DNA of 64,000 nucleotides from Candidatus Gastranaerophilales bacterium. GTDB lineage: Bacteria > Cyanobacteriota > Vampirovibrionia > Gastranaerophilales > Gastranaerophilaceae. Location: the NCBI GenBank assembly GCA_944325085.1, contig CALUYT010000057.1:1-64000 (forward strand), given 5' to 3'. A program made the position numbers and the translations under genes. The notes under the pieces are model-generated. The model saw only the letters and a program-made list of their open reading frames with translations. It was not told where the DNA came from and searched no databases. How positions within the stretch are numbered: position 1 is the stretch's first letter; the number at the start of each line of letters is the position of its first letter. Shown piece by piece: positions 43,549-48,931 of this stretch.

Positions 43549-44592
43549 ATGATATTACCAATTAGGAATTTTAGTGAGAAAAATTTATCGTTTCAATCTA
43601 AACCAAATAAGGGGGAGGAAGCTAACGTAGCTTATGATAAAGATACTTTATTAGAAAATACGTTTGCAAATCGTACCAGAATTGGTTTGGATAAATTGAC
43701 AAAAGCTTTTACTATTTATCCTGCTAAAGGATTAAAAGGTAGTAAAAACTCTAATTTTTATGAGTTTTTAACTATGGGTAATGTGCCATATATAATTGGT
43801 AGTGTAACTTTGATGTCTATTTTTAACTCTGTAAATTCAGATTTCTTCCCAGATGCAAAATCTAAAGCTTCCAAATTAGGTAATAAGATGGCAATGGGTG
43901 TAATTTTATACTGTGTATTTAAAGAATTAGCTAAATCTTTTATTACATTGCCTGTTAAATGGAAAACTGGTATAGATACTGAATTGCCTTATGCAAAAGT
44001 TAATTATTTATTACAAGAATCTCCTGATGATTATAATTTAACAAGTATAGAATATCATAAAGTTGGAGAAAGTGTTGATTTCCCACGTTGGGACCAACTT
44101 TATGGAGATCCGAAAAAAGGTGAAAAGTTAAACTTTAGATATGATAAAATTGCAGAAAAAAACGGTTTAGGCAAAGATTTGAATGATTCAGATCAAGAAG
44201 TTAAACCAATGTATAAAGAAGTTTTAGTAAAATCAAAACTTGCAAAGAGCTTTACTTCATTTATGTGGGCTGCAACTGGTGTAGCTTTAGCGTTCCAAAA
44301 ACCTTGGGAAAACTACTTTAATGTTGCAACTTTAAAATTCTGGAAACCAAAAGAATTTGGTCATTCTTTGAAAGTTTTGGGAAAAAGTTTTGTAGATAGT
44401 ATAAAAGAGTTGTATAAAGGTTCTCCGGATTCTTTCTCTAAGTTGGAAAGACATTCAGGAAAGGCTCTTATTGGCGCATCTGTATTAGTAACTTTATTAG
44501 GTATTTTAAATACTTTACACATTACTAAAAAGCCGTCAAATGTAAAAGGTTCAGATGTAATGGATAAAAATAAAGAAAGTGTGGTGAGTTAG
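43549..44592 (+). CDS. Membrane protein, first of a homologous pair in GH13 operon
   Basis: The 347-residue protein has several hydrophobic spans (around residues 80-105, 115-130, 238-255 and 303-318) and a soluble middle. It shares a pattern with the next gene: a span ending F-x-x-LP, a Tyr/Asn-rich stretch, FPRWDQLYGD near 178, and MWAATGVAL followed by KPWENY near 239. GGAG precedes ATG by six bases. The gene ends directly at the next ATG. No known family. It is likely inner-membrane and partner of the two genes downstream. Confidence 0.85.
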   Translation: MILPIRNFSEKNLSFQSKPNKGEEANVAYDKDTLLENTFANRTRIGLDKLTKAFTIYPAKGLKGSKNSNFYEFLTMGNVPYIIGSVTLMSIFNSVNSDFFPDAKSKASKLGNKMAMGVILYCVFKELAKSFITLPVKWKTGIDTELPYAKVNYLLQESPDDYNLTSIEYHKVGESVDFPRWDQLYGDPKKGEKLNFRYDKIAEKNGLGKDLNDSDQEVKPMYKEVLVKSKLAKSFTSFMWAATGVALAFQKPWENYFNVATLKFWKPKEFGHSLKVLGKSFVDSIKELYKGSPDSFSKLERHSGKALIGASVLVTLLGILNTLHITKKPSNVKGSDVMDKNKESVVS

Positions 44593-47127
44593 ATGAGAAC
44601 AAATTTAATTCAATCATACGTTAATGGAACTCCAATTGCTCAGCAATATAATTCTGATAAAGCTGTAAAAGATTTTGATGTACATAAAGAATTAGCAAAT
44701 AGAACATTTATAAAACCATTACCAAGTAACGGAAAGTTATTAAAACCAAGTCTATTTGATATGCCATCAGTTGTTGCTAATGATTTGATTTATGATTGGA
44801 ATGCTTTTCGTCATGCAGTGAAAGGTGAAGCAAACGATCATGAATTAGGCAGATTAAATGATGTTGGAATGAAGGTTGGTGGGCTTGCTATTGCATCATA
44901 TTTATTCACTAAAAAACAAACTCCAATGACAAAGGCTTTTGAATTTATAGGTTTAGCATCATTTTTTGGCGCTATGGATTTATGGCCTAAATTATTTTTA
45001 CAATTGCCGGCTTATTTGGTTCATGGGTTTAATATAAGACAAAAGTATGAAGATAATTACGGCAGAAAGAAATTAGTATTCCAAGATCACCAATTTATTC
45101 CTTGGGATTTATATTCAGATAAAGAAATAAATAAAATTGGTGACAGACTAAGAGTTCCAAAAGATATTCCAAATAGACGAGAATTTATTCAAGAAAAAAT
45201 GCGTAAGATTGCATTGCAAAATAATACTATGTGGATGTTGACGGCAGGTTTTGCAACTCCTATTATGAGTGCATTGATTTGTAACGCTTTAGAAAAACCT
45301 GTTGCTAGTTATTTAGATAGAAAAAATAATGAAAAAGCAGAACGTTTATTGACTAATTTCCCTCAAGAAATTTCAAAATTTGATTTTTCTAAAGAAGAAG
45401 CAGCTCTAAAAACTTTCTTAGCTGAAAACGAAGGAAAATCAATAACTCCTGAATTAGTAGATAATATACATGCACATCTTTCAGATGGAATAGATTACGT
45501 AACAGCTACAGGTATAAGAAAAGATTTAGATGATCTTTTACCTGTAGGTAAATATAGATTTTCAAATGAAACATTAAATGCCGTTAGAGATGTTTTAAAG
45601 GAATCATTTGCAGGTGTTCAATTGACTGAGGAAGAACTTGCAAAAATCTTGCCTGATAATAATGCAATGTTAAGAGCCTTTACGGATAACGGTTTGATGC
45701 GAAGTGAAGCAAAAGAGTTTTCTGAACATTCAAAACTTGTTCAAAATTTAGTGTTTGATAATATTGAAAGATTTGTTGAAGAAAATCCTGGAAATCCTAA
45801 TGCAAGAAGATTACGTTTCATCATGAATCAGATGGTACACTCAAATGTTCATGGTGAAGATTCAAAATTAGTAAAAGCCTTTAAGTTTGAACCTGTTTCA
45901 GTATTAACTAAAGAACTTTCTGAAAATTTGGGTAATATTTCTAAAATATTAAATGATTTTAAAGCAAAGAATTTAGTTTTAGACCGCTATGCTTATATAA
46001 AAGTAGCACAAGCTCCAGAAACTATATTGGCAAATTCTTGGAATGAAATATCTGAGTCTTTGTTAAAGGTTATGAATTTTACTCCTGAAGAAATTAGACA
46101 AGCTCGTTATGATAGAGAAATAGCAGGAGAAGTTTTAAGAAATAAATTAGAAGGAATAACTGCAGATAAGGCTTCATATTCAAAATTTGTAACAGAAATG
46201 GAGAAATTGTTATCAACCTTACAAAGTAAAGCTGCAGCATTAGATGTTTCTTCTGATGAAAGTAGCTTATATAGTTCTCTTGTAAATAAATCAACTTTTG
46301 ATGAATCAGCAAAAGCTCTAAGAAATGCACATATGGAAAATACTGCAGAAAGTCTTGTTGGATACGGATTTACATCAAGAACGTCATTAAAAGATGTTCA
46401 ATTGAGCTTTGTAGCTGATAGATTGAAAGGTGTAAAAAGTTCATTCTATAGAATTCTAAATATGGCAGATATGTACTATAAAATAGCACATGTAGAGGGT
46501 TTAGATTCTGTATTAACAAATACTATGCCAAGAGAAGTAAAAGAAGAAGTTGTTGAATTGGCTAAAGAAACTTTATTAGAAGGTCATACTTCAGATTTTG
46601 CGGTTAAATTCTATCAAAAACGTAATCCAAATCCAGATAAGTTTGATTGTTCTCAAATAGAATCTGTAGCCGGCAAAGTTAAGAATAAATATTTTGGAAC
46701 ACATCAATCTTCAGAATTGATGGAACTTTCTAATGATTCAGGTTTCTTTGAAAGTGTTATGAAATTAATGTATGAAAATAATTTACATCCTGACACTTAT
46801 GAAAAGATAAAAAGCTCTGTAATATTGGAAGATTTTATGAATTACAGAAAGAATGTCTTAGATTTTCTTGGCTGTGATTCTTATTATCCAAAACCAGCTC
46901 ATTTGGTTAATGGAAAAGTTGTAGATTCTTCATCAGAATTAAAATTCTTATTAATGGGTTGTTCTCCAGATGAAATGTTCTTGAAATTGTTTAGACAAAA
47001 ATCAAATAGTAATAAATGGTTTAAAACATTTGGTCGCTTAGGCGCAGGATTAATTGGAGTTACATTGTTATCACAATTCTTTATAGGTCATATGAAGAAA
47101 CCTCAGCCAAGTAAGGAGGTAAAGTAA
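44593..47127 (+). CDS. Large membrane-anchored helical protein, second of the pair
   Basis: In this 844-residue protein the first about 260 residues align by pattern with the preceding protein: F-x-x-LPAYLVHGF, then FIPWDLYSD near 171, then MWMLTAGFA and EKPVASYL near 213-240. A long soluble helical region of about 550 residues follows, and one last span (LGAGLIGVTLLSQFFIG) lies next to a short Lys-rich tail. The middle is rich in Glu/Leu/Lys/Asn without repeats. ATG abuts the previous stop. Predicted to be tethered at both ends to the membrane. No family recognised; it may hold or position the GH13 enzyme encoded next. Confidence 0.85.
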   Translation: MRTNLIQSYVNGTPIAQQYNSDKAVKDFDVHKELANRTFIKPLPSNGKLLKPSLFDMPSVVANDLIYDWNAFRHAVKGEANDHELGRLNDVGMKVGGLAIASYLFTKKQTPMTKAFEFIGLASFFGAMDLWPKLFLQLPAYLVHGFNIRQKYEDNYGRKKLVFQDHQFIPWDLYSDKEINKIGDRLRVPKDIPNRREFIQEKMRKIALQNNTMWMLTAGFATPIMSALICNALEKPVASYLDRKNNEKAERLLTNFPQEISKFDFSKEEAALKTFLAENEGKSITPELVDNIHAHLSDGIDYVTATGIRKDLDDLLPVGKYRFSNETLNAVRDVLKESFAGVQLTEEELAKILPDNNAMLRAFTDNGLMRSEAKEFSEHSKLVQNLVFDNIERFVEENPGNPNARRLRFIMNQMVHSNVHGEDSKLVKAFKFEPVSVLTKELSENLGNISKILNDFKAKNLVLDRYAYIKVAQAPETILANSWNEISESLLKVMNFTPEEIRQARYDREIAGEVLRNKLEGITADKASYSKFVTEMEKLLSTLQSKAAALDVSSDESSLYSSLVNKSTFDESAKALRNAHMENTAESLVGYGFTSRTSLKDVQLSFVADRLKGVKSSFYRILNMADMYYKIAHVEGLDSVLTNTMPREVKEEVVELAKETLLEGHTSDFAVKFYQKRNPNPDKFDCSQIESVAGKVKNKYFGTHQSSELMELSNDSGFFESVMKLMYENNLHPDTYEKIKSSVILEDFMNYRKNVLDFLGCDSYYPKPAHLVNGKVVDSSSELKFLLMGCSPDEMFLKLFRQKSNSNKWFKTFGRLGAGLIGVTLLSQFFIGHMKKPQPSKEVK

Positions 47128-47128
47128 T

Positions 47129-48868
47129 ATGTTGAATGTAACAAATAGTAATTTGATATCTCAAAGAATAAATGTATTACAAGAAAAGCCTCAACAAAAT
47201 CAAGGTAATGTGGTTGAGAATAATAAACCTGCAACTTCAAGTTCGTTAATCTCTCAGTATTTAAAAAATTTAGCTAATATAAATTCTGTATCAGTGAAAA
47301 AGACTTCTGAAGTTTCAGAACCAAATGCAGTTCATAAACCATATAAAAATGACTTAAGAACTTTATTCTTAACAAACAGTGCTAAAATATTGGCTATAAT
47401 TCCAAGAACTTTTAACGCAAAAGATACAAATGGAAATGAATATATAGATGGTACAGAGCAACACGGAACATTTTTAAATGCAATTGAAAGACTTGATGAA
47501 GTCAAAGCTCAAGGTTTTAATACATTGCACGTACTTCCAATAAACCCTCCGGGTAGAAGTAACGCAATGGGTACAGCAGGTTCTGTATATTCACCATTAG
47601 ATATGTTAACATTAGATCCAATGTTAATAGATAAGAATGATCCTCGTTCAGATAAAGAGCAATTTAAAGCTTTTGTTGATGCTTGTCATGATAGAGGTAT
47701 TAGAGTAATGGTAGATATGCCAAGTTGTGCATCTTATGATTTATATCTTGCACGACCAGAATTAATGGCGCATGAACGTAATGGCTTAGCAAAAACTCCT
47801 CAAGGTTGGTTTGATATTAGAATGTTCCAACCATGGGAAGATGAGGGAAAACGTACATTAAATCCTGAATTATTAGAATATCATAGAAAGTTTGTAGATA
47901 TGATGATAGATGCAGGAGTTGATGGTATTAGAGCCGACGTAGCAAGAGCTAAACCGGTTGAATTTTGGGATATTATAATCCCTTATTCAAGAAAGAGAAA
48001 TCCTGAATTTGCTTGGTTAGCAGAATCTTATACATACGAAGATGCTTCACCTCAAGCAAATATGCCTTATGATAGACCGGAAGATTCATTAAGAGCAGGC
48101 TTTGATGCTTATTATGGACAATATCATATTTTCCATGAATGGAATACAGCGCAAGAATTGCATGATTTTGTATTAGATAATTTGAATATGTCATATCGTG
48201 TAGAGCGCGGAAAGTCATTAATTGGTTCTTTTGCAACACATGATGACATTTCACCAATGAATCACGGTGGTGAGGTATATTGTAATTTGACATCAGGATT
48301 ACAAGCAACTTTACCAATGCTAAATCCATATATTGTTGATGGTTTCCAATCCGGCGATTATTATGATTATTCATATAAAGATAAATATTCAACAGAAACA
48401 AGAACAGATAACCATGAGATGACAGTTCACCAAGGTAAACTTGATATCTTTAATCTATCAAGAAGACCTGGAGGAAATCAACCTGAAATCGGTAAGTTTA
48501 TGACAGCTTGTTTTGCAATGCGTGATAAATATGCAGATGTTATAAAACGTGGTTCTTATATAATTTTAGATAAAAAAGATGATAAATTAGATAAGGTCAT
48601 TGCATATGCAAGACATAGACAAGGCAAAACATTACTTGTAATAGCAAACAAAAATGTTGATAGAAGAGTTGCATGTAAGGTCGAAGTTCCTACATTAAAG
48701 GCAAATCAAGAATTAAATAATTTATTGCCGTCATATGGTGAAGAAAGTCACTTCCAAGTATCTCAAGGTGAGATTGCCGTAGATTTGGGACCAGGTCGAG
48801 TTCATGTATTTGAAATCGATACACCTTATATAGAATCTTATTCTAAGAAAATTTATAAACAACACTAA
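47129..48868 (+). CDS. GH13 alpha-amylase-family enzyme with intact catalytic triad
   Basis: The 579-residue protein has a disordered N-terminal tail of about 70 residues (Gln/Asn/Ser-rich, no signal peptide) followed by a GH13 barrel. VMVDMPSCASYD is the region I equivalent. GIRADVARAK carries nucleophile Asp270, FAWLAESYTYEDAS acid/base Glu299, and FATHDDISPM His371-Asp372. A C-terminal beta domain follows from about 510. It would cleave or transfer alpha-glucans, probably in the cytoplasm. GGAGG lies before ATG, in the end of the previous gene. Substrate not readable; a branching or transferase role is possible. Confidence 0.88.
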   Translation: MLNVTNSNLISQRINVLQEKPQQNQGNVVENNKPATSSSLISQYLKNLANINSVSVKKTSEVSEPNAVHKPYKNDLRTLFLTNSAKILAIIPRTFNAKDTNGNEYIDGTEQHGTFLNAIERLDEVKAQGFNTLHVLPINPPGRSNAMGTAGSVYSPLDMLTLDPMLIDKNDPRSDKEQFKAFVDACHDRGIRVMVDMPSCASYDLYLARPELMAHERNGLAKTPQGWFDIRMFQPWEDEGKRTLNPELLEYHRKFVDMMIDAGVDGIRADVARAKPVEFWDIIIPYSRKRNPEFAWLAESYTYEDASPQANMPYDRPEDSLRAGFDAYYGQYHIFHEWNTAQELHDFVLDNLNMSYRVERGKSLIGSFATHDDISPMNHGGEVYCNLTSGLQATLPMLNPYIVDGFQSGDYYDYSYKDKYSTETRTDNHEMTVHQGKLDIFNLSRRPGGNQPEIGKFMTACFAMRDKYADVIKRGSYIILDKKDDKLDKVIAYARHRQGKTLLVIANKNVDRRVACKVEVPTLKANQELNNLLPSYGEESHFQVSQGEIAVDLGPGRVHVFEIDTPYIESYSKKIYKQH

Positions 48869-48872
48869 TCAA

Positions 48873-48910
48873 CTAAAAAAGACTTCCAAAATCTAGGAAG
48901 TCTTTTTTAG
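48873..48910. terminator. Bidirectional terminator
   Basis: A 15-base arm CTAAAAAAGACTTCC pairs exactly with 48896-48910 around an 8-base loop. It ends the GH13 operon and the convergent leuC. Confidence 0.95.
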
Positions 48911-48931
48911 TTTAGTATTTAAGAATTTGTT

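Follow-up and report, generated by a model that had tools for sequence, protein, structure and literature searches.

Canonical bacterial glycogen enzymes are, as far as is known, soluble. Among the GH13 enzymes (alpha-amylase clan) that resemble the one described here, GlgE carries an Asn directly after the nucleophile that contacts the M1P phosphate, and to our knowledge the maltosyltransferase of T. maritima has no membrane partner. Pairing of a GH13-fold protein with a partner in the membrane is known from the heavy subunits rBAT and 4F2hc (PMC8537225). These are animal proteins with a single transmembrane anchor, an extracellular GH13 domain and a transporter as partner.

We analyzed a stretch of 64,000 nucleotides (the window) from a Candidatus Gastranaerophilales bacterium. 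It holds three consecutive genes, encoding two predicted membrane proteins (P1 and P2) and a GH13 enzyme (P3).

Layout and distribution of the three genes

The genes for P1 (43549..44592, + strand; 347 aa), P2 (44593..47127, +; 844 aa) and P3 (47129..48868, +; 579 aa) were initially described as abutting or nearly so, and the ORF coordinates bear this out, with gaps of 0 base between P1 and P2 and 1 base between P2 and P3. A strong bidirectional intrinsic terminator (48871..48912), consisting of a 17-pair stem followed by a T run on both strands, separates the trio from a convergent leuC-like (aconitase/isopropylmalate-dehydratase) gene. On the 5' side lie genes for a KpsF-type isomerase, KdsC, QueD and UppP. 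Promoter-like matches are as numerous as expected from shuffled sequence, so we claim no promoter for the trio. A plasmid origin was considered and dropped, P1 having no plasmid match. Elsewhere in the window, two short proteins on the - strand (~2-412, 136 aa; and from 3919, 255 aa) have an N-terminal part that is met again close to the trio in a number of related loci, with 40-60% identity across the first 60-100 residues; they possibly represent a multi-copy prepilin-like family.

In 40 relatives, matches to P1, P2 and P3 adjoin in almost all genomes where they occur. The genus, like six further families of the order, keeps the trio contiguous and tightly spaced, with differing flanks, and a P1 profile matches 229 of 241 genomes and 45 of 50 genera of the order. 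Gene order and strand are kept in every complete trio (75 of 75) among named GTDB loci, nearly all of which come from gut or rumen metagenome-assembled genomes. In a sample of the class Vampirovibrionia (146 genomes), the genomes with P1 and those with a strong match to P3 (E below 1e-90) are exactly the same 65, 52 of them from family f1 and 13 from families f9 and f15. A phylum sample of 244 genomes yielded none outside the class among the matches listed. The three genes, which the preliminary description knew from this genome alone, hence co-occur order-wide and beyond, and their distribution and fixed order leave little room for a chance explanation. The trio is near-core in Gastranaerophilales, a common uncultured gut and rumen group on a non-photosynthetic branch of cyanobacteria, and extends into further families of the class.

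Order members without a P1 match include G025, G031 (f2), G033 (f4), G036 (f3), G247 and G250 (f1), which may represent natural losses. Some of them are 96-99% complete. The trio of Gastranaerophilales is also carried by two loci filed under other names, L192 (FR900488.1, Fusobacterium sp. CAG:439) and L166 (JAMPCZ010000042.1, Muribaculaceae bacterium); because both carry it, their names or bins look wrong.

P1 and P2

The first two proteins had been proposed to be paralogues that share an F-x-x-LP / W-D / M-W / K-P pattern. This pattern is real, and its residues can be located in both: FITLP (131-135), W181-D182-Q-L-Y185-G-D187, MWAATGVA (239-246) and KPWENY (251-256) in P1, and FLQLP (135-139), W171-D172-L-Y-S-D, MWMLTAGFA (213-221) and KPVASY in P2. 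Pairwise BLASTP detects no similarity between P1 and P2. We replaced it with a comparison of profiles, each built from ~30 orthologues, against shuffled controls. With hhalign, residues 59-262 of P1 align to 73-246 of P2 over 171 columns (E 4.9e-8) with a score of 70, compared to 20.3 or less for 40 column-shuffled P2 profiles and 19.8 for a reversed profile. The P1 proteins of the distant families f9 and f15 also match the P2 module profile, with E values from 1e-7 to 1e-14. AlphaFold models built from alignments of 47 (P1) and 43 (P2) sequences reach pLDDT values of 78 and 81, respectively, and predict the same order of elements in both proteins: a helix, a hydrophobic helix, a long hydrophobic helix, a beta hairpin, a short helix and a long hydrophobic helix. 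Paralogy thus held in the structure comparison as well as against the profile controls, and common ancestry of the two predicted N-terminal modules is well supported.

The shared membrane module, as predicted, spans residues 59-262 of P1 (43723..44334, +) and 54-254 of P2 (44752..45354, +), where it is the part kept across families and orders. P1 ends in a hydrophobic helix (residues 303-323; 44455..44517, +) that hydrophobicity and the model mark as its best transmembrane candidate. P2 likewise ends in a hydrophobic segment (residues 816-834; 47038..47094, +), which precedes the GH13 domain in the f9 fusions described below. Between module and terminal helix, P2 carries a domain predicted to be all-helical (~residues 255-790; 45355..46962, +). 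The preliminary description was right that P2 has a surplus over P1, although its size is ~535 rather than about 550 residues. This domain differs between families and is missing or much shorter in f3-f5, f9 and f15; because of this variability, we take the module, not the helical domain, to be the conserved core of P2. The longest P1 seen is an f5 orthologue of 631 aa (L105:1763-3658), against a usual length of ~350-400.

Neither protein resembles a described family. In Pfam, NCBIfam and PHROGs no family reaches its cut-off with P1 or P2, and their profiles give no informative PDB sequence match; the PDB matches of the P2 profile, chiefly to designed helical repeats or to helical bundles, were set aside as uninformative. 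Foldseek searches of the two models against the PDB return no credible fold (best E 0.2 and 0.6). A match of P2 to PhiKZ gp86 was rejected, as it reaches 16.6 bits against a cut-off of 26 and reflects helical composition.

The GH13 enzyme P3 and its linkage to P2

The single P3 sequence scores just below the Pfam threshold for PF00128 (20.9 bits, cut-off 22). Its profile places 4gkl, 1gju, 3dhu and GlgE at the top of the PDB list, with 4gkl at E 9e-29, 1gju second best and 3dhu at E 4e-22 over the barrel. The GH13 triad had been described as intact, and it is invariant in 38 P3 sequences. Asp270 (GIRADVARAKPVEFW; 47936..47938, +), the predicted nucleophile, aligns to the nucleophile segment of GlgE and the maltosyltransferase; Glu299 (LAES; 48023..48025, +) is the predicted acid/base, and Asp372 (ATHDD; 48242..48244, +) the predicted transition-state stabiliser. 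The position of these residues in conserved regions, together with the PDB profile matches, places P3 in GH13, of which it is a new member.

P3 departs from typical hydrolases of the family in region I, where the hydrolase His is missing and an invariant Cys (C200) stands in its place. The stretch that follows the nucleophile, RADVARAKPVEFW, is similar to RVDNPHTKPVAFW of GlgE. Judged by its sequence, P3 is a GH13 enzyme resembling maltosyl-transferring members. Because its closest solved relatives include such enzymes, transfer of a short malto-oligosyl unit would be slightly favoured over plain hydrolysis. We infer both the substrate and this choice between transfer and hydrolysis.

As first described, P3 has no export signal: we find neither a signal peptide nor a hydrophobic segment. 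It begins with a ~70-residue low-complexity, disordered tail, and the barrel starts directly after. A paralogue, 38-42% identical to P3, has a signal-peptide-like hydrophobic start followed by the same domain start, 'NDLR', and is likely an exported sister enzyme. It lies elsewhere in the genus (G000 contig C12; L091:8332-9882, - strand; also L092-L094) and is present in most family genomes sampled.

In three f9 genomes from three genera, a single polypeptide of 986, 1030 or 1082 aa joins the P2 module to the P3 domain (L224 8229-11189; L228 9820-12912; L229 9000-12248). Others in f9 and f15 have P2 and P3 as separate genes. One f9 genome (G273; L224, L225) carries the P1-P2-P3 unit twice, and P2 and P3 are fused in one copy and separate in the other. 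The fusion is direct evidence of physical linkage, and the strongest we have for P3 working attached to P2; in species with separate genes, P2 and P3 presumably touch directly as well. With the conserved gene order and the identical distribution, the fusions make the proposed functional linkage of all three genes well supported. Since natural fusions show what touches what, they also render a long-standing pair of 'hypothetical proteins' directly testable.

Function of the locus and comparison with known systems

We give about even credence to a model in which P1 and P2 form a lineage-specific membrane platform that holds P3 and serves the processing of alpha-glucans, probably from the cytoplasmic face. 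The homologous P1 and P2 would make up the platform at the inner membrane, and signal-less P3 would be held there, most likely on the cytoplasmic side, by binding P2 directly, possibly via NLIxxYL-type N-terminal peptides. P3 would then cut or transfer alpha-1,4-glucan chains, its substrate being of the glycogen or maltodextrin type, through the usual GH13 double displacement with D270, E299 and D372. A second, giant GH13 protein may cooperate with the trio.

The preliminary description called the locus a membrane-attached intracellular glucan-processing machine. Membrane attachment and glucan processing remain the best reading. That P3 has no signal peptide points to the cytoplasmic face, and the word 'intracellular', which depends on that observation, is tentative given the ambiguous topology of P1 and P2. 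Both are presumably inserted in the membrane, and the side is presumed too: reading topology from hydrophobicity and flanking charge was abandoned, as the flanking charges of P1 and P2 give no clean answer.

The candidate docking peptides lie at the N-termini of P2 and P3. The P2 peptide TNLIQSYV (residues 3-10; 44599..44622, +) is conserved and similar to two NLI-type peptides in the P3 tail, SNLISQRI (residues 7-14; 47147..47170, +) and SSLISQYL (residues 38-45; 47240..47263, +). Across relatives, P2 starts with 'TNLIQSYL' and P3 tails contain 'SNLIxQYLxNxA', often also 'TNLIAQKL'. A matrix made from P2 peptides matches 38 of 70 P3 tails; among the N-termini of other ORFs the rate is 7.7%, and among shuffled tails 1%. 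The similarity between the P2 and P3 peptides is moderate, and because the tails are related to one another the figure carries less weight. The window's own P3 peptides score 3.6 and 1.9, below the matrix threshold of 6.4. From their sequences, these peptides may form helices for docking or for binding the membrane. The idea of one 'FxG' tag shared by P1, P3 and the giant GH13 is unsupported for P1 and P3, where the strict motif is at background; F-x-G is invariant near the N-terminus in 12 of 12 giant GH13s, and F15 is nearly invariant in P1.

The giant protein is encoded by a neighbouring gene of ~1,280-1,490 aa in f3, f5, f7 and f9 (L095:12466-16488; L100:2958-7013; L104:236-4165; L228:4345-8412). 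In this genome the orthologue is not next to the trio (contig C4; L246 3931-8082, - strand), and Pfam misses it. An alignment of 12 giant sequences shows a WR[IL]DAAKD-type nucleophile motif, the Glu and [NS]HD motifs, so that the proteins look active, with an insertion of roughly 540 residues between region I and the remaining catalytic motifs. A ~1,296-aa neighbour in L231 (f15) was dropped from this set, the catalytic motifs being absent. A bolder version of the platform model, which we think unlikely, would make the locus a lineage-specific membrane alpha-glucan metabolon: P1 and P2 would gather at least two signal-less GH13s, P3 and the giant, via short N-terminal peptides, and no other lineage tested would have one.

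Export offers a different account of the locus. P1 and P2 could be a device that exports or flips P3, or the glucan made by it, across the inner membrane, with the N-terminal tails as address labels and a surface or periplasmic alpha-glucan as product. P3 has a conserved tail where its paralogue has a signal peptide, the f9 P2 proteins have a strongly positive segment ahead of the last helix that, taken alone, would place the fused GH13 outside, and Kdo-type (KpsF, KdsC) and UppP envelope genes lie upstream in the window. However, no ATPase, channel or transporter family and no transporter fold is recognised in P1 or P2, a translocator would need no fusion to its cargo, and the envelope neighbours are not kept in other families. 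We consider export quite improbable.

The same neighbours could instead indicate a role in envelope polysaccharide synthesis, in which P3 would trim or transfer glucose on a lipid- or LPS-linked saccharide and P1 and P2 would be accessory membrane proteins. Genes for the KpsF-type isomerase, KdsC and UppP are directly upstream in the window as well as genus-wide, but this neighbourhood is limited to the genus loci examined; where other families have a recurrent neighbour at all, it is the giant GH13. P3, moreover, resembles alpha-1,4-glucan enzymes rather than glycosyltransferases, and we judge this role to be no likelier than export.

P1 and P2 might also stay out of the membrane altogether and act as a soluble or peripheral helical scaffold for glucan enzymes, for example on a glycogen particle. 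Segments 1 and 2 of both proteins are weakly hydrophobic; a membrane-insertion scale gives them sums of +4 to +9, and every loop is positively charged. Only segments 3 and 4 are good transmembrane candidates and reach transmembrane-like values, especially in relatives: on the Kyte-Doolittle scale, the last helix scores 2.32 in f6 P2 and 2.16 in f15, and P1 reaches 1.94. A scaffold of this kind seems more doubtful still. Finally, that P3 is a non-catalytic GH13-like subunit aiding a membrane partner, as rBAT and 4F2hc aid amino-acid transporters, has a precedent in that arrangement (PMC8537225) but is scarcely credible, as the triad together with R268 and H371 shows no decay, being invariant in the orders that were sampled, and P1 and P2 bear no relation to transporters.

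A membrane platform for P3 can be set against each of the described systems. GlgE (alpha-1,4-glucan:maltose-1-phosphate maltosyltransferase; 3zss, 4u2y) shares with P3 the GH13 barrel, a similar post-nucleophile segment ('TKPVAFW' vs 'AKPVEFW'), a Cys around the region-I His position of hydrolases and, probably, a cytoplasmic setting. P3 is nevertheless not GlgE, because Val replaces Asn after the nucleophile (D270-V271) and the GlgE N-terminal domain, PF11896, is absent (0 of 10 genomes, this one and nine relatives); unlike GlgE, it also comes with membrane partners. The N-terminal half of the T. maritima maltosyltransferase (1gju/1gjw) is similar to P3, and its region I also lacks the His. 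The similarity, however, falls into three separate local stretches, with a different length and insertions, so the two are not co-linear over their full length. The best barrel matches, the bacterial GH13 alpha-amylases 4gkl and 3dhu, keep the region-I NH motif and lack a long N-terminal tail, unlike P3. Nor does the locus belong with rBAT and 4F2hc, since P3 keeps the whole triad and P1 and P2 are not transporter-like.

The canonical glycogen pathway (GlgA, GlgP and GH13 enzymes) likely overlaps with P3 in substrate and has no proteins like P1 and P2. This genome has GT5 and GT35 matches, which are genes of alpha-glucan metabolism, in agreement with papers that infer fermentation of starch and glycogen by the group (PMC3787301, PMC4040986). 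The part of a 2024 Chem Rev survey consulted (PMC11046441) makes no mention of 'transmembrane' or 'membrane-associated', and we found no description of the membrane pair or of the three-gene composition in the open-access literature searched. A membrane-tied glucan enzyme, if true, would alter the picture of how this lineage handles glycogen or maltodextrin. Two of the three proteins fall outside all described families and folds, and what is new in the locus is this undescribed set of membrane partners for a GH13 alpha-glucan enzyme that is itself of a known kind.
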